A stretch of 37,350 nt of DNA from a virus: IMG/VR virus record IMGVR_UViG_3300030061_001060, positions 1 through 37,350 of that record; one strand, 5' to 3'. Of this stretch, positions 6,179-25,511 are shown one piece after another. The translations under genes were made by a program, and so were the position numbers. Positions within the stretch are counted from its first letter, which is position 1. Every line of letters begins with the position of its first letter. The notes beneath the pieces are model-generated. The model ran no database searches. It saw only the letters and a list, made by a program, of their open reading frames with translations, and was not told the DNA's origin.

Positions 6179-6297
6179 TGTTCATTTCCTTTACTCTCCT
6201 CTCGCTCTGATTTACACACGCCCTGACACTTATAGTCAACAGATTTCTGTTCTACAGGCACTTCCTTGCAACATTTTTTTTCCTTTAATTTAAGCAT
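6175..6297 (-). CDS. 40-residue cysteine-rich peptide (hypothetical)
   Basis: A complete short frame runs from ATG at 6297 to TGA at 6175. The peptide is strongly charged and has four cysteines (KKCCKE, then YKCQGVCKS). It fills the only sizeable space between the 496-aa virion gene and the secreted 308-aa gene: its start overlaps the first by 8 bases and its stop overlaps the next start (ATGA). That coupling pattern matches the rest of the array. CC and CxxxC pairs suggest metal or disulfide binding. No clear Shine-Dalgarno sequence precedes it, so it might only be a leader that feeds ribosomes to the next gene. No family is recognised. Confidence 0.5.
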   Translation of the reverse strand: MLKLKEKKCCKEVPVEQKSVDYKCQGVCKSEREESKGNEQ

Positions 6298-7780
6298 AAG
6301 CTATAAAAGGATTAGATGCTAGTTGTTGTGATGTAGTATTTATATTAGCTAACCCAGGTAAACCTGACATAGATGTTGGTGTTCTTTGCACGCCTCTGTA
6401 ATTTGCAAGATCTATAATACCACCACCTTCAGCTTGTTTTTGTCTAGCTAAAGCCTCTAAATCACCTAAGAGAGATGTGTAAAAATCTTTACCCGCATTT
6501 TCACCTTTAAATGTTTTTCTATAAATAGAACCACCATCTCTTGTAGACTGATCTCTGCCATCAAAATAATCTAATCTGTTTCTAAATCCTGTAACATCTC
6601 TGTTACCTATATTGTATGCAAGTCCATCTCTACCACCATAGTTAACTTGAATATCTCCTTTTAAATCAACACCATACATTTCTTCTAGTTGTTGTATTGC
6701 TGGAATAATTGGTTCCATTATTTGCATAGTTTGATCTACATTTTCTTGACTATATTTTTTACCTTCCATACCAAAACTTACAGGCTTAAACTCATCTAAG
6801 TCAATTGATGTATAACCAGTTTTATTAGAAGGTTTTTTGTTGCCTAATAAACTAGCAACTAAAGCAGCACCAGCTAACCACGGTGCAGCAGTCGCAAGAC
6901 CTGAGAAAGCTCCAATACCTGACGCTCCAGCTCCTGCTAAAGTTCCAAGACCTGATGCTAAAGACGGATCATCTAAAAACTCATTAAGAGAAAACAAACC
7001 ACCAACAGTTCCAAGAACATTACCTATACTTGATATACCAGAGCCAGCAACATTAGGATTACCAAATAAACCAACCCCATCAGCACCAGTTAAAAATTCT
7101 CTTGGCGTGTTAAAAAAGTTTCCTACTTTATCAAAAAAACCTGTTTCTCCAGCAGGAACTACTTTTCCATCAACAACTATTTCTCCAGATTTTGGATAAG
7201 GTGCGGTAGTTGATCCTATTTTATTTACATCAGTAGCAGGTATAAGATTTCCTGCACTATCAAATGTAGGATAAGGGTTGCTTGATGTTCCAAACTTACT
7301 TAACTCCGCAGCAGATACTTTTGGCCCTGTTTTAAATAAACTACCAAGACCAGAACTAGCTTTATCTAAATCTTTTATTACTGGCATTCCAAAGGTTGGT
7401 AATCCTAATGCATTTAAACCTGTCCCTACACCAGAAGTAATAGCACCAAGTTTTACAATATCTCCTATCATTGCTCCAGTTGAAGGTTGTTTTGATGCAC
7501 CGCCTACATCATAACTTTGCTGCCCTATAGTATAGTTGCTAGGGTTTCCTGGAGTTCCTACAAAAGATATACCACCAGATGGTGTCATTGTAGCAGGTAA
7601 AGCACTTGGTCTTTTAGAGCCACTTCCAACTTTATAACTAACAACAGGTGAAGCATACCCATAAGAAGGTATACCACTTAAACGACGACTACCCCCACCG
7701 TATCTTGGTAAAGAAGCAGACTGATAACCAAAATCCTCTATGGTCCTTCCTGTTCTTGGTGGTTGAATTAATCTAGCCAT
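6290..7780 (-). CDS. Virion structural protein, Gly/Ser-rich (putative internal protein)
   Basis: A 496-residue protein. Its first ~250 residues are rich in Gly, Ser, Pro and Tyr with little predicted helix. A small hydrophobic Gly/Ala segment at roughly 270-315 (GLGTLAGAGASGIGAFSGLATAAPWLAGAALVASLLG) follows, then a charged region ending in a helical part (TSLLGDLEALARQKQAEGG). It is the last of five large genes that follow the tail hub, the position of internal or ejection proteins in P22-like and T7-like podoviruses, and its start shares TAATG with the end of the 1319-aa gene. The hydrophobic segment would suit membrane insertion during DNA delivery. The function is inferred from place and composition; no family is recognised. 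Confidence 0.65.
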   Translation of the reverse strand: MARLIQPPRTGRTIEDFGYQSASLPRYGGGSRRLSGIPSYGYASPVVSYKVGSGSKRPSALPATMTPSGGISFVGTPGNPSNYTIGQQSYDVGGASKQPSTGAMIGDIVKLGAITSGVGTGLNALGLPTFGMPVIKDLDKASSGLGSLFKTGPKVSAAELSKFGTSSNPYPTFDSAGNLIPATDVNKIGSTTAPYPKSGEIVVDGKVVPAGETGFFDKVGNFFNTPREFLTGADGVGLFGNPNVAGSGISSIGNVLGTVGGLFSLNEFLDDPSLASGLGTLAGAGASGIGAFSGLATAAPWLAGAALVASLLGNKKPSNKTGYTSIDLDEFKPVSFGMEGKKYSQENVDQTMQIMEPIIPAIQQLEEMYGVDLKGDIQVNYGGRDGLAYNIGNRDVTGFRNRLDYFDGRDQSTRDGGSIYRKTFKGENAGKDFYTSLLGDLEALARQKQAEGGGIIDLANYRGVQRTPTSMSGLPGLANINTTSQQLASNPFIAYA

Positions 7781-10700
7781 TATCTTTGTCCTTTTTCTGC
7801 TATTGCTTGTGTATCTGGATTGTTACCAGCTAAAGCTTTTCTTCTGTTTAATTCACTAAACACATCAACATCTTGTCTAAAGTCTTGTACTTTTGGTAAA
7901 GGTGTTGAACTTCTTACAGCTCCAGGTATAGCTGTAATAGTTTCTGATAAAACTCCTCCTAAATCAGAGATACGATCAGATATATTTTCACGACTAGGTA
8001 TAAAAAGAGATTCAGGTTTTGCAATTCTTTTTAATCTATCTGTTGTTTTTTGATTAGACATTGCACTATATTCTTCTGGCTCATCACCTTGTTCTCTAAT
8101 CATATTTCTAGCAGTGTTTGCTAAACCTACATTATACATAGTTAATAATTCAGATAAATTAGCTTTATTAGGATTAAAGTAATCTGCCGGATTTGTTTTA
8201 GTTGCCCATCTTGGATCCGCTAATGCTTTTAAAAACCACTCTGAATTTAACATCTTAGCATAGGCCCTTATAGTCTGATATTGTGCTGCTAAACCAGCTC
8301 CAACTGCTAAAGGTATACTGCCTGTTAAAATACCTACTGGTAATGCAGCAAAAGCTGCGGCTAAAGTTTGAGCTATTAAAGCTCCGTTATTTCCAATTTC
8401 CCATTTTCTTACTTTATCAAAAGTGTTTCCTAAACCTTGAATAATTTTATATGGATTTTTAAATTTAGACTCACCAAACAACATGTTAAATCTTTTTGGA
8501 TCATCGCCAAATTGTTTTACAAATCCACCAGAAAGAGTATTGTTTAAATCTCTACTATTAATAACTTCGTCAACTTCATCTGCATTTTTTCCGAGAGCTC
8601 TTGTTAAACTTCTTTCTAAAATGTTTTGTTGTAAATTTGCTTTTTGATTTTTTGTTAATTTTTCTAATACTCTTTCTACATTCTGTGTGCTTGTTGTTGG
8701 ATTTAAAAATTGAGTTACAAATTCATCAATATCTGGACCATCGTTTAATTTAAATCCATTTTGTTTAATTCTATTGAAAAAAGCATCACTTGTTAAAGCT
8801 ACCTGTTCTTCCATGTTTTTATTAAATAATTTAACATTATCTCTTACTTCTTTAAGACTAGCAGTTCCTGAAGTATTGGGATCGGCTAAAAATTTAAGAT
8901 TTTGATCAAATAAACTTTTAATTGCTTGTTCAGTTCCTACTTCAAAATCACCAGCTCTCATTGCTGAATCTGTTATAGTGTCAAGATATTGTTTTAAATC
9001 TAATAATTCTTTTGCTCCGTCTTTTCCAAAAATAACTTGTAACGTAGAATCAGCTGTTCCTTGACCATTGTAACCATATTTTGCAATAACATCTGAAACT
9101 TGACGAATAGTCGTTTGTCCTTGATCCACACCCATTTCTTTTACTATCTCTTTACCAAATTGCTCTTTTATACCTTGTTTTAACTCTTTAGGATTTGCTT
9201 GTGCTAATTTATTTAACAATATTTCATCTTGCTTTCGTAATGAAGTTCTTCCTTTAGTTACTTCAGTTTGAGCAGTCTTACTTACATCAACTGTTTCTTC
9301 TAATACATCTTGAGCAATTTTTTGTTGGCCTTTAGCTAAAGAAATAGGTTGTTCGATAACATCTTTAATTATTTCATCTTGTCCAAGAGCTGCTGTTTCT
9401 GGAGATGTTTTTAACATTGACCTATCTCCTCTTCTTATTACATCTCCTGTATAGTCTATAAAACTTTCAACAACTTGAGGACTGTCAGCTTGTTCTTTTA
9501 AAACATATTTAAACAAATTTTCAATTGGCATTTTACCTTCGGCAACTTTTTGTGAAGCAACTCCTAGACCAAACTCTTCAAAAGCTTCAAATGCTTTTCT
9601 ATTATCAATAGTAATATCTAAAGTTTTAGCAACGTAATCATCTAAAAGATTTAAACCATCCATATAATCTTTAGGTTTATATGTTTTCCCTATTTTTCTC
9701 TTTGCAGGCACTGCTTCTATTCTTTTTCCTCCACGAGTTATTTTTGCTGGTGTTCCAGGAGTAACAATATCAGGTTCTTTTTTTGTAATAACTTTTCCTT
9801 TTTTAGCTAAATCAACAGCAGAAGCTAAAGCAGCATTTGCTACATCAAAATCTTGAACAGCTGAGTCCCATAAATTTTTTACAGGAAAATTTATACCATC
9901 ATTAGCTGCTAATGTTATTTTTCTCATTTCCTGTATAACTTCATTAACTTGTAATGGAGATAAAAGAATTTGTTGATCTGCCATAAATTTATTATTTATA
10001 AACTCACCTTCAGTGTTGTAAAGTTTTGCAAAAGTTCCTTCTCCTACATTTCTTAATGGAGTTGTTTTTTTAAATTTTTGAATTTCTGTTAAAAGACTAT
10101 CTGGTGATATATATCTAATTCCTTTTTCTTTATCAAACATCATTGCAAAAACAGGAACTTTTCTTTTTCCAACTTGAGCTGAAATAACATTTATGTTTTC
10201 ATTAGCGGTGCTTTTAAATGTGTTATTTAAGTAAGTAGCAAGAAGTTTATCTGTTGGAGTTAAACCTCTTTTCATTACTGGCATTTTATTAGGGCCAACA
10301 AAATCAAAAAATTTACTAGCTTGATTTTGTAAGTCTTGTGGAGTTATTTCATCAAATAAAGGCATAATTTTTTCAAAACCTTTTCTTGCTGCTCTTTCTC
10401 CGACAGTAATAGCTTCTGTTGAACCAATTGCTACATTATCTTGTAGTGTTTTAAATATAACACCAGCATCCTCATCAAGTTTTATCGTACCTTTTTCTAA
10501 ACCCTTTAAAGTATTATCTAATATACCTGCTACATTAGTTACAACATTGTGACGAAAACCTTTACTTGCATCTCTAAGTTCGTTTGCTTTTAAACCTAAA
10601 GCATCTTGCATAGATTCTACTATGTCTTTATCAGTAATTTTTGCATATTCTTCAGGCGTTAAGGTTTCTTCAAATTCCTTTCTTAATGCTTTTGCATTTA

Positions 10701-11739
10701 TTTCTGATCTTTTTGTTTGTAAACCTGCAATTTGTTCAGCAATTCTTCCCATTCTTGCTCTTAAATTTTTATTATAAAAAGGTTCTGAGTATGGATTTGG
10801 TCTATATCCTCTTGATACAAAGTCTTTGTAACTATCTTTAGCAGGAGTTGGTTCTACTCCTTTTGATACTCCCTTAGACCAATCTTTATAAGCATCTTCT
10901 CCATAAATAACTTTTGCTTGTTTTTTGGGACTAGCTTTTAAAATTCTTCCAACACCCTTTAACAAACCAAGAGTTGCAAGATCGCCTCCAGCAGCCCAAG
11001 CCGCTTCTTTTAATCCTCTTCTGTTTACTTCAGCAGCTGATTCTTTTTGTATTCCTCTCATCCATTGTTGTGCTTCATTTAATGCATTACCAGCATAAGC
11101 ACCAGCTCCAGAACCTGCTACAGCTAAACCTATAGTAGCTAATCCAGCAATAGGAGCGGAGACAGGTAATGTAGCTATAGCAGCAGCTCCTAAAGCTAAA
11201 CCACCAGCAAATCCAGCAATTGAACCTCCAGTAGTATAACCATACTCACCTAAGAAATCTAAAAAGTCTTCAGCTTCAAATTTATCTGAATCTATTGCAA
11301 GTAAATCATTTGTAGCTGTAATACCTAAATTTTTTTGACCTTCGGGAGTTAATAAAAAATTACCTAACTTATCAACAACATAACCTTTATCACCTGTCAT
11401 TTTATTTAAGTAAGCTACTTTTTCATCAAAATTATCTGTTTGACCAAAAAATGTTCTTAATCTTTTTCCTTGTATGTAACCTATTGGATCTTCTGTGATA
11501 GTTGCTGTATTACCCACACCTGTTTTGTAATCAGCTCCTCTAAAACGACCTGTTCTTGTAAAAACACTTAAAGGTTGATCCGCTTCTTTTTTTAAAGTTT
11601 CAGCACGTTTAGTTGACTCTATAAAATCACCACCAATTTTATTTCTTAATGCACTTTCTTCAGCAGGTGTCAGTTGTTCACCAGCTTGTTTAACTTGAAA
11701 AGTTTTGCCATCAAATGATTTATAAAATTTTACTACCAT
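7780..11739 (-). CDS. Very large internal/ejection-type virion protein
   Basis: At 1319 residues this is the longest protein in the window. It is mostly charged and helical, with two hydrophobic Gly/Ala stretches: about residues 170-217 (GGSIAGFAGGLALGAAAIAT, then further Ala/Gly helices) and about 1120-1155 (LAAAFAALPVGILTGSIPLA). Long helical proteins with a few membrane-like segments are typical of podovirus internal core or ejection proteins such as T7 gp15/gp16, which leave the capsid and build a channel across the host envelope. I saw no lysozyme or transglycosylase motif. It is followed directly (TAATG) by the 496-aa gene and preceded by one base after the 634-aa gene. The ejection role is inferred. 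Confidence 0.65.
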   Translation of the reverse strand: MVVKFYKSFDGKTFQVKQAGEQLTPAEESALRNKIGGDFIESTKRAETLKKEADQPLSVFTRTGRFRGADYKTGVGNTATITEDPIGYIQGKRLRTFFGQTDNFDEKVAYLNKMTGDKGYVVDKLGNFLLTPEGQKNLGITATNDLLAIDSDKFEAEDFLDFLGEYGYTTGGSIAGFAGGLALGAAAIATLPVSAPIAGLATIGLAVAGSGAGAYAGNALNEAQQWMRGIQKESAAEVNRRGLKEAAWAAGGDLATLGLLKGVGRILKASPKKQAKVIYGEDAYKDWSKGVSKGVEPTPAKDSYKDFVSRGYRPNPYSEPFYNKNLRARMGRIAEQIAGLQTKRSEINAKALRKEFEETLTPEEYAKITDKDIVESMQDALGLKANELRDASKGFRHNVVTNVAGILDNTLKGLEKGTIKLDEDAGVIFKTLQDNVAIGSTEAITVGERAARKGFEKIMPLFDEITPQDLQNQASKFFDFVGPNKMPVMKRGLTPTDKLLATYLNNTFKSTANENINVISAQVGKRKVPVFAMMFDKEKGIRYISPDSLLTEIQKFKKTTPLRNVGEGTFAKLYNTEGEFINNKFMADQQILLSPLQVNEVIQEMRKITLAANDGINFPVKNLWDSAVQDFDVANAALASAVDLAKKGKVITKKEPDIVTPGTPAKITRGGKRIEAVPAKRKIGKTYKPKDYMDGLNLLDDYVAKTLDITIDNRKAFEAFEEFGLGVASQKVAEGKMPIENLFKYVLKEQADSPQVVESFIDYTGDVIRRGDRSMLKTSPETAALGQDEIIKDVIEQPISLAKGQQKIAQDVLEETVDVSKTAQTEVTKGRTSLRKQDEILLNKLAQANPKELKQGIKEQFGKEIVKEMGVDQGQTTIRQVSDVIAKYGYNGQGTADSTLQVIFGKDGAKELLDLKQYLDTITDSAMRAGDFEVGTEQAIKSLFDQNLKFLADPNTSGTASLKEVRDNVKLFNKNMEEQVALTSDAFFNRIKQNGFKLNDGPDIDEFVTQFLNPTTSTQNVERVLEKLTKNQKANLQQNILERSLTRALGKNADEVDEVINSRDLNNTLSGGFVKQFGDDPKRFNMLFGESKFKNPYKIIQGLGNTFDKVRKWEIGNNGALIAQTLAAAFAALPVGILTGSIPLAVGAGLAAQYQTIRAYAKMLNSEWFLKALADPRWATKTNPADYFNPNKANLSELLTMYNVGLANTARNMIREQGDEPEEYSAMSNQKTTDRLKRIAKPESLFIPSRENISDRISDLGGVLSETITAIPGAVRSSTPLPKVQDFRQDVDVFSELNRRKALAGNNPDTQAIAEKGQR

Positions 11740-11740
11740 T

Positions 11741-13645
11741 TTAACCTTGCGTTAAATCAATACTTTCATATATGTTTTCAGTTTCATCTGTTTCTTCAAA
11801 TTGTAAAGCACTTGATTTTGGAATTGAAAAGGCTCCCCCACCTTTTTGTAATTGATTTAAAACAGAACGCTCTATATCTTTTATGTCTTCAAGATACCCT
11901 GATGATTCTCCTTGGGCATATAAACTTTGTAACGCAGAGTTAGCATTTCTAGAAGGAGCTTCAAAAATATTTATTAACTGCTCTAACGCTAATTTTGCTC
12001 CAGCTACATCTGTAAATGTTCCTAAAACATTTACAATGTCATCAGCTCTTTTTCTGTCAGCGTCGGATATTGTTCTGTTAGATTCTCCGAGAATAGTTGT
12101 AATATTTTGAGCCGTAAATCTTTTTGCCCACCTTGCAATAATTTCAGGTGTAGGCATTATTTGATTTCCATTTTCGTCAAAAGCTATTCTTTCAACACCA
12201 GCAATAGCTGCAATTGATCTTGATAAATCATTTACTCTTTGAGCCAAACCAATGTTATCTGCACTAACTAAATCTTTTATCATGCCAATTTCTTCTTTAG
12301 ATTCTTGAGAATAATTTTCAGCTTGATATATCTCTGTTATAATAGGGGCTAAATTAACATCAGGAACATATTTAACTTCTCCTGTGTTTTTATCTTCTAA
12401 CATTCTAACTCTAAATTTTAAATTATCTTTACTTCCTCTTGAGTAAAGACCGCTAATTTCTACAGGAACAAAAGTTTTATGTCTAAAGTTATTAGGAACT
12501 TGTTCTTCTGTTTCTATTAAAACTTTTTCTTGCACTGGTTTAGATTCAGCTACCTGCTGTTGTGTTCCTGGCATAGGAACTCGACCAGCAAGAATAGCTT
12601 TTCTCATAAACTCTTCTTCTCTGTCTATATCATCGCCTCTTATTTCTTTTGCAAGCTCAGCTGGGCCTATTTCGTAATCACCAGTTCTTGTTAACTCAAG
12701 AACTTCTCTTTGAGTTAATCCAGTGGGCGTTAAAACAAAATCATTTTGTCCTTTATCACCAAAACCAAATCTTGATTTATCTTTTCTTCTGTAAGAATAG
12801 AAATCTCTTTTATCTGCCTCTGGTAATTGTGATCTTAATTGTTCTGCTCTTGTTGCCATTACAGATGCATTTCTTCTTGCTTCTTCACCTAAAAAACTTC
12901 CATCTCTAGGAGAGGCCATTCCACGAGCAGCTTGCAGTTCTAATTCTTGTATTCTATCCCTCATATCTTGTTCTTCATTTCTTCCAAAAAATCCTGAACT
13001 TTTTGGTGTACCTATAGTATCTCTTGCTTTTTCAAGATCTTTATTAAATCTGTCATCAAAAGGATTTTTGTCAGAAAACTTTGCACTAGCTGGAGCTTGT
13101 TGAAATTGTTGAATATTTAAATCTTTAATAGTTTCTAAAGCTTCTCCACCACGACCTACGTCTTGTTTAAATAATTCGTACAACAAGACATTAGTTTCAG
13201 GAGAATCTTCTAAAGGAATTTTTTCTCCTTTTACTGATACATAAAATAAATCACCTGTAGTAGCATCAGTAGCTGTATTTTCTTTTATCCATGATTTAAA
13301 ATCATCAACATCATCAAATTCTTTAATTTCTTTTTCATTAACTAATTCTTGTTTTTTTGGTTTTTGTGATTTTACATTTTTCAAATCAGATGTTAATGCG
13401 TTTAAATCTTTTTGAATGCTGTCAGGAGATAATACAGGGTCTTCTGGGATAAAAGGATTATTTAATCCTTTAGCTCTAGCTGTTCCTAAAGCAATGTTAT
13501 TTTTTGCTTTATCACTTGTTAAACTTTGATTTAGTGCAAGCAACCCTAATCCACCAATACTAGAAGGAGTAGGTAAAATAGGACCAGAACCTTGCAACAT
13601 TCTTAGCATAGAATTTTTTGGTTTTATAATTGGTGGGTTGTTCAT
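11741..13645 (-). CDS. Virion protein, charged and largely helical (unknown family)
   Basis: This 634-residue protein is rich in Lys, Glu, Asp and Gln, with several probable helical blocks (for example MRDRIQELELQAARGMASPR and EQLRSQLPEADKRDFYSYR) and no signal peptide or membrane segment. It lies between the 404-aa and 1319-aa putative internal proteins with only 1 and 3 bases between genes, so it most likely belongs to the same core or ejection set. No catalytic motif or named family is visible. Its size and charge would fit a soluble component of an ejected channel, but this is only a suggestion from context. Confidence 0.6.
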   Translation of the reverse strand: MNNPPIIKPKNSMLRMLQGSGPILPTPSSIGGLGLLALNQSLTSDKAKNNIALGTARAKGLNNPFIPEDPVLSPDSIQKDLNALTSDLKNVKSQKPKKQELVNEKEIKEFDDVDDFKSWIKENTATDATTGDLFYVSVKGEKIPLEDSPETNVLLYELFKQDVGRGGEALETIKDLNIQQFQQAPASAKFSDKNPFDDRFNKDLEKARDTIGTPKSSGFFGRNEEQDMRDRIQELELQAARGMASPRDGSFLGEEARRNASVMATRAEQLRSQLPEADKRDFYSYRRKDKSRFGFGDKGQNDFVLTPTGLTQREVLELTRTGDYEIGPAELAKEIRGDDIDREEEFMRKAILAGRVPMPGTQQQVAESKPVQEKVLIETEEQVPNNFRHKTFVPVEISGLYSRGSKDNLKFRVRMLEDKNTGEVKYVPDVNLAPIITEIYQAENYSQESKEEIGMIKDLVSADNIGLAQRVNDLSRSIAAIAGVERIAFDENGNQIMPTPEIIARWAKRFTAQNITTILGESNRTISDADRKRADDIVNVLGTFTDVAGAKLALEQLINIFEAPSRNANSALQSLYAQGESSGYLEDIKDIERSVLNQLQKGGGAFSIPKSSALQFEETDETENIYESIDLTQG

Positions 13646-16097: not shown

Positions 16098-17953
16098 TAT
16101 TGTCTCCCATCTGGCTTAACATCGAGTCGTGTAGAGCCCAATCTCCAACCAACTCCGAGACGATTAGCATTATTATTACTTCCGTCATTAAAACTAGAAA
16201 CATTCAAAGAAAATTGTCTTCCTCTTCCTCTTATGTTTTTAACTTGTGTTTCTGCATCTACAGGAATAGTAGCATCAGCTACTAATGTTCCACCCGGTGC
16301 ATCACGCATTTTTACAATTAAATCAACAGTTTGCGGACCAGCACCGTCTGTTCCTATAAACTTAAAGTCTGGTATAACTCGACTAACAAAAGAAAATTGT
16401 TCGCCGTCACCTATATCAATATCACCTGATTGTATAGATACATTATCCATAGGAGCTCCGTCATCATCATAACCCACCTCGTGAGCATAAACATAACCTG
16501 GTGAACTACCACCAGCTGCTCTTGGTTTTTGATAAATGCCGTAGTCAATCCAAGCTGTTCTTTCCATTTTACCTATAGCCCATGTTCTTTGCACATAGTT
16601 ATATGTAACATACCTATCAATCTCATTAGAACCAGCAGAAGGATAATACCATCCTACTTCGTCAAAAGTTTGATTAGAAAAACCAAAAATCTTATATCTT
16701 TCATCATAGTTAATATCATTAAAGACATATTCTTTTACAGTACAAGGCAATGCTTGAACAGAACCTGTGTAAACATAGAAATTAGATTTATCCATCCAAA
16801 ATGTTGCATCGGCTCCATTGACCGCTGCATTTGGACCTAGTATCGAGGGACCCCTTGCGAGGAGAGAAGTGGTAAAGGGCAGGGGTCCCCCTACGAATCG
16901 CAATGAAAACAATGCGATATCGGTCCATACTAATATTTCCTGACGAGTCTGTAGCCCGCCAATAATCTCAGAACCTAGATTTAACTCAATCTGATCAGCT
17001 GTAGATGTTCCGTCTGTTCGTATCTGCCAATCAACTGCACTGTTTTGGTTAGAAATTGCTATTATCATTGGGTCTATTGTTCCTGTTCTAGAAGCACCAG
17101 AAATAGGATCAACGCCTAATGCAATAACATGGCCGTCTCTTTCCGAGACAATAACTTGATTTGCTTTTGTTGGAGCTAAGATTGCTCCTGCATCAGCAGT
17201 AATATTTGTAGCACGAGTATTTGTGCCTGCACTCTCGTCCCACTTGTAAATACCACCGCCTCTATAATTCATAATAAGGTCTTCACCGTAATTATCTTGA
17301 TTCCATAATCTAAATGAGTCGCCTGTTGCACCAAAACCCCAAGAACCAGCATTCCAAGTACCAGAGCCCCATCCACCTAAAAGGTTTTGTAAATCTTCTC
17401 CAACAGGTATTTCAAAAGCAAATGTTAAACTACCGCCTGTATTAGAAGTAGAACCATTAGCTTGAGTAGTAACTGTTATATTAAAGTTATTAGCATCAAC
17501 AACAGCTACAGCATGATTGGCATTAATTTCTGCTATTGGAATACCATTAACAGGAGCTGACAAACCAGAGATAGTTACAAAATCTCCTGTAGCACAACCA
17601 TGACCTGTAACAGTAAATTTTACAGTAGTTGTTCCATTTGTAGTCATAACGTCTGTAGCTGATACTGTGGATCGTAATGGTGTAATATCATAGAACACAG
17701 CTTGATTTAATACATAAAATTTACGATTAGTTCCTACACCTACGTATTGATTGCCGTCAAAGTCAGACCATTCAAACAATGTACGACAACTACCTAAAAA
17801 AGAATTTTGCGAATACTTTTCCCATCCACCTATCTTTTGTGGAAGACCTGATTGAAAACGAACAAGGTTGCCGTCTGTCCAACCACCTTCGTCTGTATAA
17901 TCTGTTGTCTCTTTGTTTATTCCAGGTCTGAAATTAAATTTCGCTAACGGCAT
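16097..17953 (-). CDS. P22 gp10-like tail hub/nozzle (packaged-DNA stabilisation) protein
   Basis: A 618-residue beta-rich protein. The N-terminus (NFRPGINKETTDYTDEGGW, then RFQSGLPQKIGGW) and the repeated Trp/Gly/Tyr beta strands match the P22 gp10 and podovirus nozzle type, a beta-propeller ring beneath the adaptor that closes the channel and carries the tip. Residues about 108-182 look inserted: VTGHGCATGDFVTISGL followed by VVDANNFNITV resembles the FCCH-like beta barrel that recurs in phage tail proteins. It overlaps the S74 fibre gene by 20 bases and the 107-aa gene by TAATG. At 618 residues it is longer than P22 gp10 (about 470), which the insert could partly explain. A GC-rich patch near 16830-16990 codes the LPFTTSLLARGPSILGP part. 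Confidence 0.75.
   Translation of the reverse strand: MPLAKFNFRPGINKETTDYTDEGGWTDGNLVRFQSGLPQKIGGWEKYSQNSFLGSCRTLFEWSDFDGNQYVGVGTNRKFYVLNQAVFYDITPLRSTVSATDVMTTNGTTTVKFTVTGHGCATGDFVTISGLSAPVNGIPIAEINANHAVAVVDANNFNITVTTQANGSTSNTGGSLTFAFEIPVGEDLQNLLGGWGSGTWNAGSWGFGATGDSFRLWNQDNYGEDLIMNYRGGGIYKWDESAGTNTRATNITADAGAILAPTKANQVIVSERDGHVIALGVDPISGASRTGTIDPMIIAISNQNSAVDWQIRTDGTSTADQIELNLGSEIIGGLQTRQEILVWTDIALFSLRFVGGPLPFTTSLLARGPSILGPNAAVNGADATFWMDKSNFYVYTGSVQALPCTVKEYVFNDINYDERYKIFGFSNQTFDEVGWYYPSAGSNEIDRYVTYNYVQRTWAIGKMERTAWIDYGIYQKPRAAGGSSPGYVYAHEVGYDDDGAPMDNVSIQSGDIDIGDGEQFSFVSRVIPDFKFIGTDGAGPQTVDLIVKMRDAPGGTLVADATIPVDAETQVKNIRGRGRQFSLNVSSFNDGSNNNANRLGVGWRLGSTRLDVKPDGRQ
16847..16889. repeat. GC-rich inverted repeat inside the hub gene
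   Basis: Eight bases gggacccc (16847-16854) are matched by ggggtccc (16882-16889) with 27 bases between, in a stretch much richer in G and C than its neighbours. It could form a stem-loop in the late mRNA. No U run follows, so it is not a typical terminator. It may be only a conserved coding patch. Confidence 0.5.
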
Positions 17954-19145
17954 CTTGTAATTCTTCCACTTTCTCTTGCAAATCGTCTATTTTCCAAATT
18001 GCTTCTTTCAAAGCTTGAGTAAGTAAAGGAACCAGCTTAGATAAATCTAATTGCTGTAAGATTGGTGCGTCTGTTATTGGATCAACAGCGTCCTTGTCAC
18101 CGGTAACTGCATTAGGTACTACAGCGTCAACTTCGTGAGCTATAAAACCTTCGTGAACATCATCTTTACCTATAAAAGAATAAAGAAGTGGATCTAACTC
18201 TAAAACTCTTTCAACAGCATCTTCTATTGTACCAAGTTTGTTTTTAACTCGATAATCAGAGGTTGTATTAAAAGAAGCGTTAGCTCCGTTGTTACTAATA
18301 GAGCCTACAGTTGTAGCCCCATTTAAAAATGTAATATGTTGTATACCTGAACCTTGATAACTTTTTAAGGTAGTATTTGTGTCTATGTAAGCACTAGCAT
18401 TTGCATTTTGTGATGTACTTGTTATGCCACCAAAAAATATATTACCAGAAGCATCTATTCTAACTCTTTCTGCTGTACCGCCTGTTACAAATGCTAATTG
18501 ATTAGTTGTTGACTTAATATTATTGCCGTCAATATTAACATTATCTACTTGTAAATTGGTTATAGGTGAATTAGCTCCTAAATTTACACCATCAATAACT
18601 CCTGAATCAATATCTACTTGATCTAAATAAGCAATTCCATCAATATATAAATCTCTAAATTTTTTAGAAGATGTTCCTATGTTAGCTGTATTTGTTACTT
18701 CCGGAATAAGACCATCTACTAATAAAGTTCCAATACCGTTTTCAATAGATCCGTTAGTAGCTCCTTGACCAGTAGCGTAAATCATAGCTGTAGCACCATT
18801 TGGAAGTGTAATGGTATTACCTGCTGAACCTTGTTTAAAAGTAAGAGTGTGACCTCCTGAAGTAGCGTTTTTTACATACCAAGTTTTTTCTAAATCAGAA
18901 GGAGAAAAGGTAATAGTCCTTCCAGAAGTTAAGGTTCCTGTAAAATTAATAAATTTATTTCTAGCATCAGAAGAGCTTCCGTCAGATATACTAAAAGTAA
19001 AATCTGCATCAGACATTGCATGGCTAACATAACCTGCAATTGCTTGATCTATAAGATCAAAATTAGTATTAGTTGTTGTACCCCATGTACCAGATTCTTC
19101 ACCTGTTTGAATTAACTTTATTCCTAAATTACTATATGTAGCCAT
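17934..19145 (-). CDS. Tail fibre with C-terminal S74 intramolecular chaperone
   Basis: 403 residues from the ATG at 19145 (a longer frame starts only at a TTG inside the upstream gene). The N-terminus (ATYSNLGIKLIQTGEESGTW) and the following beta-rich region match fibre heads of marine podoviruses. The middle repeats short Asn/Ser/Thr beta strands typical of a trimeric shaft. The last 108 residues are an S74/endosialidase-type chaperone: SDYRVK gives the autocleavage pair S296 and K301, followed by EDAVERVLELDPLLYSF, then GFIAHEV, and a C-terminal coiled coil (IWKIDDLQEKVEELQDAV). Such domains trimerise the fibre and then cut themselves off. The gene follows the cupredoxin-like protein (TAATG) and overlaps the hub gene. 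It is the best candidate for a main host-binding fibre. Confidence 0.9.
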   Translation of the reverse strand: MATYSNLGIKLIQTGEESGTWGTTTNTNFDLIDQAIAGYVSHAMSDADFTFSISDGSSSDARNKFINFTGTLTSGRTITFSPSDLEKTWYVKNATSGGHTLTFKQGSAGNTITLPNGATAMIYATGQGATNGSIENGIGTLLVDGLIPEVTNTANIGTSSKKFRDLYIDGIAYLDQVDIDSGVIDGVNLGANSPITNLQVDNVNIDGNNIKSTTNQLAFVTGGTAERVRIDASGNIFFGGITSTSQNANASAYIDTNTTLKSYQGSGIQHITFLNGATTVGSISNNGANASFNTTSDYRVKNKLGTIEDAVERVLELDPLLYSFIGKDDVHEGFIAHEVDAVVPNAVTGDKDAVDPITDAPILQQLDLSKLVPLLTQALKEAIWKIDDLQEKVEELQDAVSEI

Positions 19146-20125
19146 TATGCAGCAACCCTTGTCCAATTAGGTGTTTGACTTGTATCTACTTCTTGCCATA
19201 ACACCAACTTACCAACTTCACCAGTGGCAGTAACACTTGTTGGGAAAACAGTAGAACCTTCTTGTATCAACACAGTTCCAATTTGACCTAATGTTGAAAC
19301 GCCAGCAGGAAACGCTGTTGCTCCCATGGATAAACTAACATCTCCTTCGCTCAATGTCATTAAAAGATTTACATTAGCTTCAACAGATAAGGCAAAACCC
19401 ATTCCGCTATGGTTAGAACATTTTACATACAGTGTTGATGGTGCATTATTAGCTACTACAATTTGTGTATAAGCTCCAGCTTGCCCTGGTGTTCCTACTA
19501 CTGTAACCCCATCAGTGTAATCAGAACCATCTTGTGAGGTACTAAATCTTAATGGATGTGTTGCATTACTTGAATCTGACTGATCAAACCTATAAGTAAA
19601 ACCTTTGTGTAAAGCCGTGTAAAGACTTTGTTTTTGACCATTAGCATAATACTTATTACCACCACCATCATTGTATACGGTAATAGCAAAGTTTTCATCT
19701 TGACGAGGATAAGCAAGAACATTAGCAATAATAGTTGGATTGCCTAATGTAGCTGTACCAGTAACTCCCGTTGGGAAACAAGTTACACCAAAATTAACAG
19801 TTTCATTACCTACAGACATAGTAGCTGTTATAGGTGTTTCTATAATAATATTTACATTGCCTTCAGTAGCAATCGAATATGGCCCTAATGAAACTGTAGA
19901 GGCTACACCAGTTACACCATGTATACCTCCTACTGATATCGCAGGACTTCCAAGTGTTGTATTAATAGCAATTCCGTTTGGAATTACAGTTACAAATTGC
20001 CCAGCAGAAGCTTGTCCTACTTGAGCAGTAGCTGATACAGATGTAACGGAAACTGTAACGCTGAGTGTAAACTCACCTGATCCTCCATAGGTATCTTCTG
20101 AATATGTAGTTGCACCGAAAGCCAT
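19145..20125 (-). CDS. Tail/virion protein with cupredoxin-like domain between beta repeats
   Basis: A 326-residue protein. Residues 25-135 and 255-320 carry short degenerate repeats of about 20-25 residues (FPTGVTGTATLGNPTI, FPAGVSTLGQIGTVLI, FPTSVTATGEVGKLVL). Between them, residues about 147-245 resemble a small beta-sandwich known in cyanophage and marine phage virion proteins: FTYRFDQSDSSN, HPLRFS, then YVKCSNHSGMGF. H190, C236, H239 and M242 are spaced like the copper ligands of cupredoxins (His in an HPL strand, then CxxHxxM). Metal binding is not shown. The start is preceded by a perfect hairpin with the Shine-Dalgarno bases in its loop. The stop shares TAATG with the tail-fibre gene, so it is likely a fibre-associated or baseplate protein. 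Confidence 0.7.
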   Translation of the reverse strand: MAFGATTYSEDTYGGSGEFTLSVTVSVTSVSATAQVGQASAGQFVTVIPNGIAINTTLGSPAISVGGIHGVTGVASTVSLGPYSIATEGNVNIIIETPITATMSVGNETVNFGVTCFPTGVTGTATLGNPTIIANVLAYPRQDENFAITVYNDGGGNKYYANGQKQSLYTALHKGFTYRFDQSDSSNATHPLRFSTSQDGSDYTDGVTVVGTPGQAGAYTQIVVANNAPSTLYVKCSNHSGMGFALSVEANVNLLMTLSEGDVSLSMGATAFPAGVSTLGQIGTVLIQEGSTVFPTSVTATGEVGKLVLWQEVDTSQTPNWTRVAA

Positions 20126-20160: not shown

Positions 20161-20376
20161 CTACTCTACTGTGAATTGTCTATCTTCAGATTCTATTAAT
20201 TGCTTAATTTGATTACCTAACTCGGTCGAGTCAATTTCTAGTAGAGCGTCTAAGAAGTCTTTTTTATCGCTAATAACAGAAAAATTCACATCATAATTAT
20301 GTTCTATTCTCATAGTATGAAGTGCTTCAATTTCTTTTTGTTGTGGGACCCACTCGTCCTTTTTTTCTTCACTCAT
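20161..20376 (-). CDS. Small acidic protein, unknown (next to tail-assembly chaperone-like gene)
   Basis: 71 residues from the first ATG at 20376; a longer frame begins only at a TTG inside the upstream gene. The protein is acidic and mostly helical (DDEWVPQQ-like start, then KKDFLDALLEIDSTELGNQI, ending EDRQFTVE). It follows the tail-assembly-chaperone-like gene by two bases, so the two are probably translated together and may act together in tail assembly. I looked for a slippery sequence that could fuse it to the upstream frame and saw none that was convincing. The family is not recognised. Confidence 0.6.
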   Translation of the reverse strand: MSEEKKDEWVPQQKEIEALHTMRIEHNYDVNFSVISDKKDFLDALLEIDSTELGNQIKQLIESEDRQFTVE

Positions 20377-20378
20377 TA

Positions 20379-20759
20379 TTATACTGATGGTTGAATAACA
20401 GTTATACCTAATGAGGCAACAGGACAATTTGGAACAGTAATATCATCAGGATCTGTTTTAGATGCTGGCAAATCTCTAAGAGTTGTTCTCCATGTTGTTA
20501 ATGCTTCTTTTTCAGAATTACTTAAAGGTGAATCAGAATGCATAGCCCAATCAGAATCAGATAATAACTTATTTCTGTATGATCTAATTGCTGCAAATAA
20601 ATTAGCATCATAATTATCTATTATTTCTTGTGCACTAGCTTTAGCTTCATCCCATTCTGCATCTGTATAATCTTCAACAACTCTTACGCCTTCAGCATTA
20701 CGAATTGCTTTTTTAGGTCTTACTGTAAAGATTTCAAAATCTGCTTGTGTATACGCCAT
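20379..20759 (-). CDS. Phage tail assembly chaperone-like protein
   Basis: This 126-residue protein has the block RNKLLSDSDWAMHSDSPLSN followed by ALTTWRTTLRDLP. That matches the R-x-x-LL-x-x-SDW ... W-x-x-x-R-x-x-LRD(I/L)P pattern of phage tail-assembly chaperone (APC) proteins, which help tail fibre genes fold and attach. The N-terminal half is charged and helical. It sits between four fibre-like genes upstream and the tail fibre and tail genes downstream, where such an assembly factor is expected. A 61-base AT-rich gap precedes it on the coding strand's downstream side. The family call rests on the motif. Confidence 0.7.
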   Translation of the reverse strand: MAYTQADFEIFTVRPKKAIRNAEGVRVVEDYTDAEWDEAKASAQEIIDNYDANLFAAIRSYRNKLLSDSDWAMHSDSPLSNSEKEALTTWRTTLRDLPASKTDPDDITVPNCPVASLGITVIQPSV

Positions 20760-20820
20760 TTTAATACTCCTAATTTTTAAAACTTATATTATTTAATACT
20801 TTTAATCAACTTAAATTATC
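20760..20820 (-). promoter_or_regulatory. AT-rich gap before the tail-chaperone gene; weak promoter candidate
   Basis: One of only two non-coding gaps over 50 bases in the late array. On the coding strand it holds TTGATT and TATAAG separated by 15 bases, or TTAAGT and TAATAT separated by 17, as imperfect sigma70-like boxes, and TTAGGAG, a good Shine-Dalgarno sequence, close to the ATG. AT richness makes chance matches likely, so a promoter is only possible. Confidence 0.25.
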
Positions 20821-21924
20821 TTAATAACTTGCAGGTACAATATTTATCCAAAACTCAAATCTTCCACCTGATATTCCCCAATGACTAGCAGTAACTTGTC
20901 CACTACTTCCACTGCTACCATTATTAGCAGTGGTAAATTGATGAGGTAACATACTTAATTTTACACCTGCCGCATAATTACTATTCATAAAATAATAGTT
21001 ACTTGTTGAATTATCAGCATCTTGACCCATTTGATTAGTACCCATAGCAGGATAACCATTGTTGTACCAACTATTTGCTCCTTGATAATTAAAATTAGTA
21101 GTTGCTCTCCAAGAACTTTGTCTGTTATGAATAATACATTCTCCACTAAAATTAGCTTGATGATTGTTGTTTCTTGTACTTGTTACACTCCATGGATTGT
21201 TAATTTGATTAAGAATCATAGTATTTTGACTGCTAGTGCTAGGAACAATACCTATTTGAGTATTATCGCCTCTTATTATTCTATAACCTACATCCTCTAC
21301 TGTATAGTATGCAGGATTACCACCTGACCTAGTCCACTGACCATTTTTTCCATTACTAGTGTTATCATAATTAGAATTCCAACTACTGCTACCATTTACA
21401 AAAGTAGTGCCACTTCTTATTCTAAAATTTGTATTATTGTGTACTAAAGAATTTCCTTCATAATCTAATGGTTTTACAAAAGTATGAGCCCATACAGTAT
21501 TTTGACTATTGATTCCATTTTTAAAAGAAAAGTTTACATTGTACCATTTTATAATAAAAGAACTTATTCGATTGTATGGTATAAAATCATTTGGAACAAG
21601 CATATCTATTTGTTGCAAATTTTCAGATGGAGGATGTTTATCATAATCCCAAACTCTAAGCAAGATAGGTCCTTGCATAGTTTGATTATCAAATTGATAT
21701 TTAGCAGTTGCTGACTGAACTTCAGAATTTACTGTAGCAAAACCTAAATTACCATTGCCATCTGTTTGCATAAATTGATTAGCAGTACCATCGGCAGAAG
21801 GAAGACTCATTTCTGGTCCTGATGCACCAACTTTAAATTTTACTTTTTTTCCTGTGCTAGCTTGAAGAGTTAAGTCTGTTGAAGTTGCTGATACAATAGA
21901 GCTAGTAACTAATTTAGATACCAT
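20821..21924 (-). CDS. Fibre-like virion protein, paralogue 4 of a tandem array
   Basis: A 367-residue beta-rich protein, Asn/Ser/Thr/Trp-rich. Its N-terminal region has the array signature PSADGTANQFMQTDGNGNLG (residues 42-61). The rest differs strongly from the other three paralogues: Asn-rich loops such as NGQWTRSGGNPAYYT and a C-terminus AAGVKLSMLPHQFTTANN ending in GRFEFWINIVPASY instead of the KDGVVS ending. It is the last and longest of four similar genes read from 24824 down to 20821. A shared assembly or attachment N-terminus with a divergent body fits proteins that bind the virion and vary at the outside, such as receptor-binding or decoration fibres. The exact role is unknown. Confidence 0.65.
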   Translation of the reverse strand: MVSKLVTSSIVSATSTDLTLQASTGKKVKFKVGASGPEMSLPSADGTANQFMQTDGNGNLGFATVNSEVQSATAKYQFDNQTMQGPILLRVWDYDKHPPSENLQQIDMLVPNDFIPYNRISSFIIKWYNVNFSFKNGINSQNTVWAHTFVKPLDYEGNSLVHNNTNFRIRSGTTFVNGSSSWNSNYDNTSNGKNGQWTRSGGNPAYYTVEDVGYRIIRGDNTQIGIVPSTSSQNTMILNQINNPWSVTSTRNNNHQANFSGECIIHNRQSSWRATTNFNYQGANSWYNNGYPAMGTNQMGQDADNSTSNYYFMNSNYAAGVKLSMLPHQFTTANNGSSGSSGQVTASHWGISGGRFEFWINIVPASY

Positions 21925-21933
21925 TTAAATCTC

Positions 21934-22908
21934 CTAAGATACTACGCCATCTTTAAATCTAGCGAACAACATAAAGACACCATCTTTCATTGTAACACCA
22001 GATTTCCATTCTATTTTCATTCCTAAAGAATGTTTTAAAGTGCTTGGAGTTGTTTTATGAAATCCATTTGATGTAGAATAATTAGCAACCTTTGTGTAAA
22101 TTCTCTGACCTGGTAATTCATTAGTACGATTACCAGTTCTTCCCATTGATCCTTGTGCCATCCAAATAGGATAAGTAGCAGCATTCCACCAAGTTGCCAT
22201 TAATTGACCAACAGGATGTTCATCAAAAGTATCTCCTGCGTTTCCATCCCATCTAGTTCTATTGGAATAAGAATTATAATTATGTCCAACATTGAAATAA
22301 ACATCATCACCTTGTGTTGGATCAGTTCCCCAATTTCTTTCTACATTCCAGTCTTTGTATTGATTACCATACCCACTAGTCATAGTAATAAGATTAACTG
22401 ATTTTCTAGAAGTAGTAGTTCCGTCTTGACCCATCATAGTAATTCTAAAATTATCATCATAATTTGCATTTGTTTGAGCCATTGTCATTCCACTTAAATA
22501 AAGTTCTAAAGTTAAAACATTTGAAGGATCAGTTGTGTAAGAAGAAGGAACAGTTAAAGTAACAGAACTAACATTAGCTGCATCATTTAAACCACAAAAA
22601 TATTTGTCGCAAAGTCTTATACCTTGATGATTTCCATCGGGGGTTGATAATGGATTAGCGGAAGGAGTTACAAATTCTAAAACGCCACCCGTTCCGTTTG
22701 TTTGTAATATTTGACCAGCAGTTCCATCAGAAGGAGGCATTGTATAATCTATACCAGCACTTCCTATTTTTGATGATTTATCTGTCCAGCCTAAATTAGC
22801 AGAACCATCTGTCTTTAAAACTTGTCCTGTAGTACCATCAGCAGAAGGTATAGTAAAAGCAGTAGTGCCAGCTTGTGATTGTATTTTTTTTACGACTATT
22901 TTACCCAT
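21934..22908 (-). CDS. Fibre-like virion protein, paralogue 3 of a tandem array
   Basis: A 324-residue protein that carries the array signature twice: PSADGTTGQVLKTDGSANLG near residues 21-40 and PSDGTAGQILQTNGTGG near 58-74, an internal duplication. The body aligns with the next upstream paralogue at TPDGNHQGIRLCDKY and NVSSVTLTVPSSYT, so these two are the closest pair. The C-terminus HSLGMKIEWKSGVTMKDG ends in ARFKDGVVS. Asn, Thr, Tyr and Trp are common and no enzyme motif is visible. It starts at the TAATG shared with paralogue 2. It is probably a trimeric or monomeric outer virion protein. Confidence 0.65.
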   Translation of the reverse strand: MGKIVVKKIQSQAGTTAFTIPSADGTTGQVLKTDGSANLGWTDKSSKIGSAGIDYTMPPSDGTAGQILQTNGTGGVLEFVTPSANPLSTPDGNHQGIRLCDKYFCGLNDAANVSSVTLTVPSSYTTDPSNVLTLELYLSGMTMAQTNANYDDNFRITMMGQDGTTTSRKSVNLITMTSGYGNQYKDWNVERNWGTDPTQGDDVYFNVGHNYNSYSNRTRWDGNAGDTFDEHPVGQLMATWWNAATYPIWMAQGSMGRTGNRTNELPGQRIYTKVANYSTSNGFHKTTPSTLKHSLGMKIEWKSGVTMKDGVFMLFARFKDGVVS

Positions 22909-23867
22909 TAGCTTACTACTCCATCTTTAAATACTCCATATAACTCAACAACACCTGAAACCCAATTATTATTTGCGTTATTTCTAATTGAAACGCCCAT
23001 TGGATGGTGTCCTTTATCATTAGCAGGTTGTATTGAACTAGCCAAATTACCAAGATATACTTGTTCATTATAATAATTTGAATTATTTTGATTATCAATA
23101 TAATCAATTTTTGCAATCATGCTCGGAGAGGTAGCAGGATTAATATAAACTACACCATTCCAACAAGAATTACTATTATATGATTCATTTCCATTTATAG
23201 TAGTTTGACTAAAATAATCTGAATTACTAGCTCCACTAGAAGTTCTGTATACATTATATCTAGTCATATACTTCTCTTGATTGGCATTGTTTATGTTAGT
23301 TGTAGTAGAATTATAACTTTTACCTTCTACTCCAAACCTAGCGTAAGTAGCACTAGGGTTGTTTCCAGCACCAGTACCGAAATAATCTGATCCATCTTGT
23401 TCTAACAGTCTTATTGTAGGTCTATAAGTACCACCTTGACCTGTCTGCATACCTCTCATAACAACTTTCATAGTTCTTATAGTATTTAAATCAGTATTTG
23501 TGTAACCTGTTGGTACAGTTAAAGTAATTGAACTAACATTACCGGCAGAACCTGATATTACATATCTATCTAAAAGTCTTTCTCCTTGATGTGCATTATC
23601 AGGAGTATTCATTGGATTACCTCCAGCTTGAGTTGCTGTTAAATTACCATTTGCATCTGTAACAAAAGTTGAATCATCAGCTGCACTTGCAGGAAAAGTT
23701 ATATTAGTTCCGTTTTGTGCTTCTAATTGAGCTCCTCCAAAAATAAGATTACCTGCATTGTTTGATGATTGTAAAACTTGTCCGTCAGTACCATCTGTAG
23801 TTGGCCATGTTAAAGTTGGAGAGCCACCAGATGAATTTTTTAAACTATTTACTACTAAAATACTCAT
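22908..23867 (-). CDS. Fibre-like virion protein, paralogue 2 of a tandem array
   Basis: A 319-residue protein with the signature WPTTDGTDGQVLQSSNNAGN near residues 21-40 and a second, more decayed copy ending DANGNLTATQ. The middle matches paralogue 3 (TPDNAHQGERLLDRY, NVSSITLTVPTGY). The C-terminus (HHPMGVSIRNNANN, then GVFKDGVVS) is also close to that of paralogue 3. The region 170-270 is extremely Asn/Ser/Tyr-rich, suggesting loop-heavy surface exposure. Its stop and the next start share TAATG. Function is inferred only as part of the array. Confidence 0.65.
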   Translation of the reverse strand: MSILVVNSLKNSSGGSPTLTWPTTDGTDGQVLQSSNNAGNLIFGGAQLEAQNGTNITFPASAADDSTFVTDANGNLTATQAGGNPMNTPDNAHQGERLLDRYVISGSAGNVSSITLTVPTGYTNTDLNTIRTMKVVMRGMQTGQGGTYRPTIRLLEQDGSDYFGTGAGNNPSATYARFGVEGKSYNSTTTNINNANQEKYMTRYNVYRTSSGASNSDYFSQTTINGNESYNSNSCWNGVVYINPATSPSMIAKIDYIDNQNNSNYYNEQVYLGNLASSIQPANDKGHHPMGVSIRNNANNNWVSGVVELYGVFKDGVVS

Positions 23868-23876
23868 ATTTTTCTC

Positions 23877-24824
23877 CTATGCACCATCGTTAAGACAATA
23901 ATACAGACAAACAGTTCCTTTTTTAAAACTGCCACCGTTTAGCATTTCTAATTTAAAACCTGCCGTATAATCTGTGGACATCACAAAATTACCTTGATTG
24001 CCTCTTCCTTGATAAACGATTGAAGATGCAAAATTATAATTACTATTGCCAGTGTGAAATCCATTTACCTCTACAACACCATCAAAATCGTATTTAGCAT
24101 TATAATGTTGTAATTGAAAATTAAGGTCTCTAAATGACATACTACTATTCTGAGTTTGTAATGCATTCCAATCACCATAAGTAGTGTTAACAGAGCCATT
24201 TTGCTGTACTGTACCACTAGGGCCATTATTTAGTCTAATTTTATTACGAGTTGATGTGTCATAATTAGCACCGTAATTATTACTTAGAGTTTGATTAAGA
24301 GTACCAATCTGACTATTTGCAATATTATTACCACTTGAATTTATAGCTTCAACATTCATATACCAACTTCCATTTTGTGCTGCAAGACCATAAGCCTCCA
24401 TATAATAACTAGAAACATCTGAAGCATTTACACCACTAGGTAACAATAAATCTATATATCCAACTCCAGTATTAGCACCATTTGATTCACTGCCACCAAA
24501 ACTACTAATAATAGAATTAAAATCTGCTTTATCTGCAAGTCTCCAACCAGTATGAGAACCTATTTGCATTGGATCACCGCCCGCAGAATACCAGCCTAAA
24601 GTATTTCCTCCAGCGGTTCCTAATGCTTTTCCAGCTTGAATGTTAGCAGGAACTGTGTAAGTAACTGTTCCTGCCGCATTTGTTACTTTTTGAAGTCTAT
24701 CTCTCCATGAAAGAACGCCTGAACCATTTGTTTGCAACATATCACCAGCAGCAGGTGTTGTTGTTGGCAAGGTAAGAGCTGTTCCTCCATTATATTGTAT
24801 TTGATCTACTGTTAATAATGACAT
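23877..24824 (-). CDS. Fibre-like virion protein, paralogue 1 of a tandem array
   Basis: This 315-residue protein is the first of the four in transcription order. The N-terminus has LPTTTPAAGDMLQTNGSGVL near residues 19-38 and a second weak copy before GGNTLGWYSAGG. The body is Asn/Ser/Gly/Tyr-rich. The C-terminus TAGFKLEMLNGGSFKKGTV, ending YYCLNDGA, corresponds to the GMKIEW...KDGVVS ends of paralogues 2 and 3. It is separated from the next gene by 9 bases. It is likely an exposed tail or head fibre; the receptor or partner is unknown. Confidence 0.65.
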   Translation of the reverse strand: MSLLTVDQIQYNGGTALTLPTTTPAAGDMLQTNGSGVLSWRDRLQKVTNAAGTVTYTVPANIQAGKALGTAGGNTLGWYSAGGDPMQIGSHTGWRLADKADFNSIISSFGGSESNGANTGVGYIDLLLPSGVNASDVSSYYMEAYGLAAQNGSWYMNVEAINSSGNNIANSQIGTLNQTLSNNYGANYDTSTRNKIRLNNGPSGTVQQNGSVNTTYGDWNALQTQNSSMSFRDLNFQLQHYNAKYDFDGVVEVNGFHTGNSNYNFASSIVYQGRGNQGNFVMSTDYTAGFKLEMLNGGSFKKGTVCLYYCLNDGA

Positions 24825-24833
24825 TTTTTTATC

Positions 24834-25511
24834 CTATGCGTTTAATGTAACCGTGTCACCTAAATTTAATACAGCATGAGAAGTTGCGTCAATAACTTCA
24901 ACACTTCCTGAACCAGTAATTGCTACTGAGCCTACCACATTAAATTGTCCTAAAGCAACTGTAATTTCTGTAATCGTTCCAGCAGACCAGAAGGGAGAAA
25001 CTTCGTTAGCGTATGCTGTATCTGCAATATAGTATACTGCATCATCAAAAACAGTTACTGAACCATTTGCACCTATTGTTGTACCATCTTTTGCTGTAAA
25101 TACTGCACCTAGTGTAAATCCACCTGTTGTTTCTGGTATAACACTTTGTGCTCCACTAATAGTTCCTGAAGCAGAAGCAATATCAACAGCAGATAAAACA
25201 CCCGCTCTTTCAGCTGGTAATGTTACAAAAACATCTTTTTCTGCTGCACTAAAATTAACTAATCCATTTGAATTAGAAGATTCAAAAACAAAATCACGGC
25301 TAAGCGTAGTACCGCTTGCGGTATATGTTCCTATGCCTGTTTCAAAGTCTCCAGCTGCGTTAGTAATACCGTACTGTGTTCGAGCACCATCTCCTAAAAC
25401 AGAAAAAGCTTGAAACCCTAAAGTAGCACCAGACAAAGTAAGAGTTCCAGTTCCACTTGTCGTACTTGTTTCTTTAATCCTATCAGCTATTTTCAAGCTA
25501 AAATGAGGCAT
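24834..25511 (-). CDS. Tail/fibre-associated protein with DRIKETSTTSG N-terminal domain
   Basis: A 225-residue beta-rich protein. The first ~110 residues follow a pattern widespread in phage tail proteins: DRIKETSTTSGTGTLTLSGA, then a Tyr-Gly segment (DGARTQYGI), ETGIGTYTASGTTLSRDFVF, SSNSNGLVNFSAAEKDVFV and LPAERA. This N-terminal domain often anchors fibres or spikes. The C-terminal half is Ser/Thr/Gly/Val-rich beta sheet without known motifs. It lies directly between a 150-aa tail protein and the fibre paralogue array, so it may be a baseplate or fibre-connecting piece. Confidence 0.65.
   Translation of the reverse strand: MPHFSLKIADRIKETSTTSGTGTLTLSGATLGFQAFSVLGDGARTQYGITNAAGDFETGIGTYTASGTTLSRDFVFESSNSNGLVNFSAAEKDVFVTLPAERAGVLSAVDIASASGTISGAQSVIPETTGGFTLGAVFTAKDGTTIGANGSVTVFDDAVYYIADTAYANEVSPFWSAGTITEITVALGQFNVVGSVAITGSGSVEVIDATSHAVLNLGDTVTLNA

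Follow-up and report, generated by a model that had tools for sequence, protein, structure and literature searches.

Tandem fibre-like genes in the putative tail module of a marine podovirus-like phage: a co-inherited trio beside an exchangeable fibre

Four tandem fibre-like genes, named F4, F3, F2 and F1 in the order of transcription, were analysed in the window, a single linear record from a virus, 37,350 bases long. As judged from gene trees and divergence among relatives, F4, F3 and F2 are an ancient, position-locked trio with one shared history, and the history of the adjacent F1 is unrelated to theirs. With moderate confidence, we favor a reading in which the trio is a co-assembling, lectin-like fibre unit anchored by an adaptor and F1 is an exchangeable receptor-binding fibre, rather than a set of four alternatives. 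The interval 20379-25511 is best read as encoding the tail-fibre (adhesion) module, and the phage as a marine, podovirus-like relative of the HTVC023P-type pelagiphages.

RESULTS

Layout of the locus

The four genes are adjoining open reading frames on the minus strand (20821-24824), arranged head to tail, with the adaptor-like gene (adap) upstream and the chaperone gene (chap) downstream (Table 1). The stop codon of F3 and the start codon of F2 share one base (TAATG), and this overlap is kept in all loci but two. The downstream neighbor had been described in the initial annotation as tail-assembly-chaperone-like, which was borne out by its match to PF16778 (Phage_tail_APC; E 1e-13, 51.3 bits compared to a Pfam gathering cut-off of 26.6). 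A small open reading frame on the minus strand (20161-20427) overlaps the chaperone gene; it is 88-94% conserved in the loci L008 and L014, has shorter relatives elsewhere, and is probably a real gene with function unassigned.

Table 1. Coordinates of the features of the putative tail-fibre module in the window
Feature	Position	Strand	Description
adap	24834-25511	-	225-aa adaptor-like protein
adap N-domain	25203-25511	-	residues 1-103; widespread fibre N-domain
adap C-domain	24834-25202	-	residues 104-225; co-inherited with the trio
F4	23877-24824	-	trio member, 315 aa; head about residues 1-84, body 85-315; head signature MSLLTVDQIQYNGG
F4 signature, degenerate	24705-24770	-	residues 19-40; LPTTTPAAGDMLQTNGSGVL
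F3	22908-23867	-	trio member, 319 aa; head signature MSxLVVNSLKNSxG
F3 signature, clear variant	23739-23807	-	residues 21-43; WPTTDGTDGQVLQSSNNAGNL
F2	21934-22908	-	trio member, 324 aa; head signature MGKIVVKKIQSQ; body predicted lectin-like beta-sandwich
F2 first signature, literal	22786-22851	-	residues 20-41; IPSADGTTGQVLKTDGSANL
F2 second signature, literal	22672-22740	-	residues 57-79; MPPSDGTAGQILQTNGTGGV
F1	20821-21924	-	367 aa; exchangeable fibre with a class-A body, distantly paralogous to the trio
F1 signature, literal	21739-21804	-	residues 41-62; LPSADGTANQFMQTDGNGNL / LPSADGTANQFMQTDGNGNLGF
chap	20379-20759	-	126-aa tail-assembly chaperone, APC family; in all relatives

Portal-, head- and adaptor-like genes lie near the module. 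For the capsid, the best-placed relatives with a known host were the Pelagibacter phages HTVC023P (70%) and HTVC027P (67%), and 023Pt_psg01 and DSL-LC04 scored similarly. Elsewhere in the window, positions 767-2851 (plus strand) encode a 694-aa DNA primase/helicase-like protein, for which the best matches in phage records were from Wolbachia phage WO (about 36% identity over 97-99%); such a neighbor was not expected in a pelagiphage-like virus. The minus-strand genes at 7780-11739, 11741-13645, 3372-5264 and 6290-7780 (1319, 634, 630 and 496 aa, respectively) gave no PHROG match at E 0.001 and, by position, probably encode internal virion or ejection proteins. Two further minus-strand genes follow the module, one for an S74-type fibre (17934-19166) and one for a fibre-like protein (19145-20125).

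Copy number and orthology among relatives

To collect relatives, viral contigs were scanned twice with proteins and once with a profile, which gave about 30 loci that carry the genes, of which about 18 are independent; all are metagenomic contigs. Every locus with a readable adap-to-chaperone interval contained exactly four genes in the order F4, F3, F2, F1, always one of each, and the sole variation within the interval was an additional small chaperone in some loci. A tree of 51 proteins placed F2, F3 and F4 in one orthologue clade each (supports of 100, 100, and 91, respectively), and F1 also formed one group in a head-only tree. The clades of F2, F3 and F4 indicate that the duplications are older than all sampled phages and that the positions keep their identity. 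The N-terminal residues were specific to each position and near-invariant (F2, MGKIVVK[KN]; F4, M..L.V[DN][QE][IV]Q; F3, MS..[VI]VN.L). The heads of F4, F3 and F2 were 83-89 residues long in all cases with an identifiable head-body boundary motif, and DNA identity between the window and L010 was 0.9-0.97 in the heads and 0.5-0.7 in the bodies.

The initial annotation had envisaged repeated duplication and divergence, giving alternative or mixed receptor-binding proteins on one virion. Duplicated fibre-like genes are indeed present, but the duplications are old, having occurred before these phages diverged, and what has happened recently is horizontal swapping of bodies, confined to F1. The word "alternative" does not suit F4, F3 and F2, which were never lost, duplicated or singly exchanged in the loci seen. 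That the four-gene set would be carried together is supported indirectly, by the presence of all four genes in the same order in every relative.

The trio and the adaptor C-domain as an evolutionary unit

The gene trees of F4, F3 and F2 differed from one another at 0-2 of the 20 splits, none of them in strong conflict, whereas the F1 tree differed from any trio tree at all 20 splits, with 20 strong conflicts, although F1 adjoins the trio. The chaperone gene, which lies beyond F1, showed no strongly supported conflict with the trio trees. Pairwise identities were correlated among F4, F3 and F2 at r 0.95-0.98, compared to 0.45 for F1 with the trio, and neither the tail gene TTA nor the S74 fibre showed a correlation with the trio (r between about 0 and 0.13). 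When only the bodies were considered, divergence was correlated within the trio at r 0.94-0.98, or 0.84-0.94 once the effect of the adaptor was removed; for the F1 body against the trio, the values after this removal were 0.11-0.17.

The tree of the S74 fibre cleanly split the relatives into two genomic backgrounds, between which S74 identity was 28%. The background changed at least four times on the trio tree and the trio was never split, indicating that the trio moved as a block. The C-terminal part of adap tracked F4, F3 and F2 (r 0.85-0.87) and its neighbor e150 at only 0.18, while the N-terminal part tracked backbone and tail genes (r 0.49 with e150). Between the window and L005, identity was 81% in the N-terminal part, 96% in the C-terminal part, and 69% in e150. 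The joint of the moving block is therefore located inside the adaptor gene. Named phages matched adap only at residues 4-117 or thereabouts, and most of what a neighbor-anchored survey with an adaptor profile found was the N-domain, carried by single long fibres that are unrelated; the survey shows this domain to be widespread but is uninformative on the trio.

Exchange of the F1 body

Three classes of F1 body were distinguished, A (331-388 aa, the class of the window), B (254-275 aa) and C (287-288 aa), with no similarity between classes detected by BLAST, and the class changed at least six times on the trio tree. The trios of L022 and L023 were 93-98% identical and their F1 proteins 42%; likewise, L118 and L120 were 90% identical in F3 and 97% in F2, compared to 40% in F1. 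The F1 heads of L118 and L120 remained similar as far as the PxxDGTxG.. motif, beyond which they diverged, so the head signature pointed out in the initial annotation sits at the joint; in related loci, F1 bodies switched at or near this signature (residues 41-62). An extra APC gene of 94-96 aa was present in 5/5 readable class-B loci and 0/12 others (Fisher p 1.6e-4, the loci being partly non-independent, with L120 and L122 near-identical). This second gene occurred in L013, L120, L122, L123, L124 and L125, only with the short class-B F1, and both of the two small class-B chaperones that were checked matched PF16778. On this sequence evidence, F1 is likely the host-range determinant.

The trio pattern could also be produced by physical linkage together with selection on F1, as linkage by itself can keep adjacent genes together in inheritance. 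The four proteins would then be independent homotrimeric fibres with separate attachment points and receptors, the trio being co-inherited only through adjacency and the F1 swaps being selected. Phage fibres are generally homotrimers, which speaks for this possibility. Tandem spikes that act individually are also known, such as TSP1-4 of phage CBA120 (PMC8825819, PMC11414711). However, the conserved heads offer crossover sites for the exchange of single bodies in the trio as well, yet all of the at least six class swaps hit F1 and none fell in the trio, which argues against pure linkage. Were each of the four genes to have the same chance of a swap, the probability of finding all six in F1 would be about 2e-4, or (1/4)^6. 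We regard independent fibres as a serious possibility, though not a probable one, and continue to favor the co-assembling trio with an exchangeable F1.

Predicted fold of the trio bodies

AlphaFold2 modeling of F2 with 10 orthologues gave a pLDDT of 57. With paralogues added (44 homologues), the model reached a pLDDT of 74 and a pTM of 0.66, and consisted of a beta-sandwich following an extended head. Foldseek matched this model to predicted viral side tail fibre and collagen-repeat proteins with a probability of 1.0 and low TM-scores, and, in the PDB, to the L-type lectin domain of ERGIC-53 (E 1.6e-4; a weak match, with a TM of 0.25-0.36, for a model of pLDDT 74). As the L-type lectin match is weak, the predicted lectin-like nature of the trio bodies is a lead, not a result.

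The trio might instead consist of structural tail proteins, for example a collar or decoration around the adaptor, with F1 and the S74 fibre (gene at 17934) as the only points of host contact. Such a role would fit the shared inheritance with the adaptor C-domain and the lack of exchange among trio bodies. We consider it improbable, as few proteins of the locus diverge as fast as the trio bodies (mean identity across relatives 0.28-0.37, compared to 0.56-0.59 for the heads), which is a host-facing pattern, and the fold matches are fibre proteins and lectins.

Homology of the four proteins

The head signature had been assigned to all four genes. F1 carries it in literal form, as does F2 at two places, but F3 has a clear variant and F4 a degenerate form, and the statement is therefore true only loosely. 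When the heads were compared, 6/6 pairs among F1-F4 scored above all 300 shuffles, whereas among the bodies only F2-F3 (z 15) and F1-F4 (z 4.5) did so. By BLASTP, F2 and F3 matched over their full length (E 7e-20), and the matches of F4 and F1 were mainly in the heads. Profile-profile comparison with hhalign, using profiles built from the relatives, gave E 5e-43 for F2-F4, 2e-36 for F3-F4, 1e-14 for F1-F2, and 1e-16 for F1-F4. The earlier description of some bodies as barely related is thus limited to single-sequence comparison; the head shuffles and the full-length profile matches confirm four tandem fibre-like paralogues and indicate that all four proteins are homologous across their full length. 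That the likeness arose by chance or from the composition of Asn/Ser/Gly-rich proteins is hardly credible: the bodies are rich in N, S, G and T, and single-sequence body scores lie near the shuffles for 4/6 pairs, but the head scores exceed every shuffle, the full-length profile E values range from 1e-14 to 5e-43, and the heads are position-specific and invariant. A low-complexity artefact was likewise ruled out by the shuffles and profile comparisons.

Neither F1-F4 nor their relatives had a significant match in PHROG, Pfam or the PDB when searched by sequence. The F1-F4 region had no DNA match, and F2 no protein match, in phage records, and F1-F4 had no match in the bacterial genomes searched.

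DISCUSSION

In the mechanism that we propose, the adaptor N-domain would sit on the tail, and the adaptor C-domain would dock the three position-specific heads of F4, F3 and F2 side by side. Three lectin-like beta-sandwich bodies of equal reach would project from near residue 85 and may bind cell-surface glycans. F1 would be attached separately through its own head, while its exchangeable body would bind the receptor. This body would fold with chaperone help and would be swapped between phages near the PxxDGTxGQxLxTDGSGxL linker, in one class together with its own APC chaperone. The one-base overlap of F3 and F2 would couple the translation of both. We infer the virion location, head docking, glycan binding and oligomeric state of F1-F4 from their sequences.

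A more specific form of the unit would be a heterotrimeric tail fibre of F4, F3 and F2, with one chain of each, parallel and in register, instead of a homotrimer. Such a fibre would give the best account of the data, including the equal length, the equal head length, the F3-F2 coupling and the unbroken joint inheritance; we put it forward tentatively and hold it to be rather unlikely. No description of a heterotrimeric phage tail fibre or of tandem pelagiphage fibres was found in the open-access literature searched.

Several receptor-binding proteins in one phage are usually taken as independent, swappable tools. At this locus, natural variation separates the co-evolving parts (the adaptor C-domain, F4, F3 and F2) from the swapped F1, joined in one class by its chaperone. 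The module can be viewed as a natural experiment in changing the host without breaking fibre assembly, and the trio offers a concrete case in which to test for heteromeric fibres in phages.

The slot itself is prone to tandem fibre sets. At the corresponding slot, HTVC023P has four tandem Gly-rich fibre paralogues (gp59-62; L037:11242-16938) and 023Pt_psg01 has three (L038:6472-10679), annotated merely as hypothetical or structural. As these numbers differ, in paralogues of another kind, the tandem number is not generally fixed at this slot. Both phages share with the window the position after the tail adaptor, an e150 homologue and the adap N-domain, and their paralogues resemble F1-F4 in near-equal lengths and in the head style M-S-x-I/V-x-V-x-x-I. 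However, their bodies are of the glycine-rich PF21722 type, with no homology to F1-F4 detected; PF21722 is present in HTVC023P gp59 and in psg01 and absent from F1-F4. Being 43-65% identical to each other, these paralogues look recently amplified.

F1 resembles cassettes of a fibre and its cognate chaperone (APC PF16778; Tfa-like) in pairing an exchangeable body with a small chaperone gene. It differs from them in that the constant APC gene stays with the trio and the second APC gene occurs only with F1 class B. The S74 C-terminal domain (PF13884) was found only in the separate S74-type gene and not in F1-F4. A hetero-oligomeric receptor-binding complex is known from a podovirus, gp54-gp55-gp56 of phage DEV, in which a monomer each of two proteins sits on a homotrimer, compared to three tandem paralogues here (PMC12892993).

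The nearest known arrangement is the branched tailspike complex of Ackermannviridae (PMC8825819, PMC11414711). Like CBA120 TSP1-4, F1-F4 are tandem, with conserved, position-specific N-terminal parts and divergent bodies, and each set is proposed to occur jointly on a single virion. In Ackermannviridae, exchange affects one receptor domain or one entire tsp gene at a time (PMC11414711), whereas here single exchange is seen in F1 only, and F4, F3 and F2 are congruent. No gp10-like XD or TD domains were found in F1-F4 (Pfam, 44 members; PDB sequence search), and the F2 body is predicted to be a beta-sandwich, unlike the catalytic beta-helix of the tailspikes. The module is a variant of the multi-fibre arrangement and gives a hint of heteromeric assembly.
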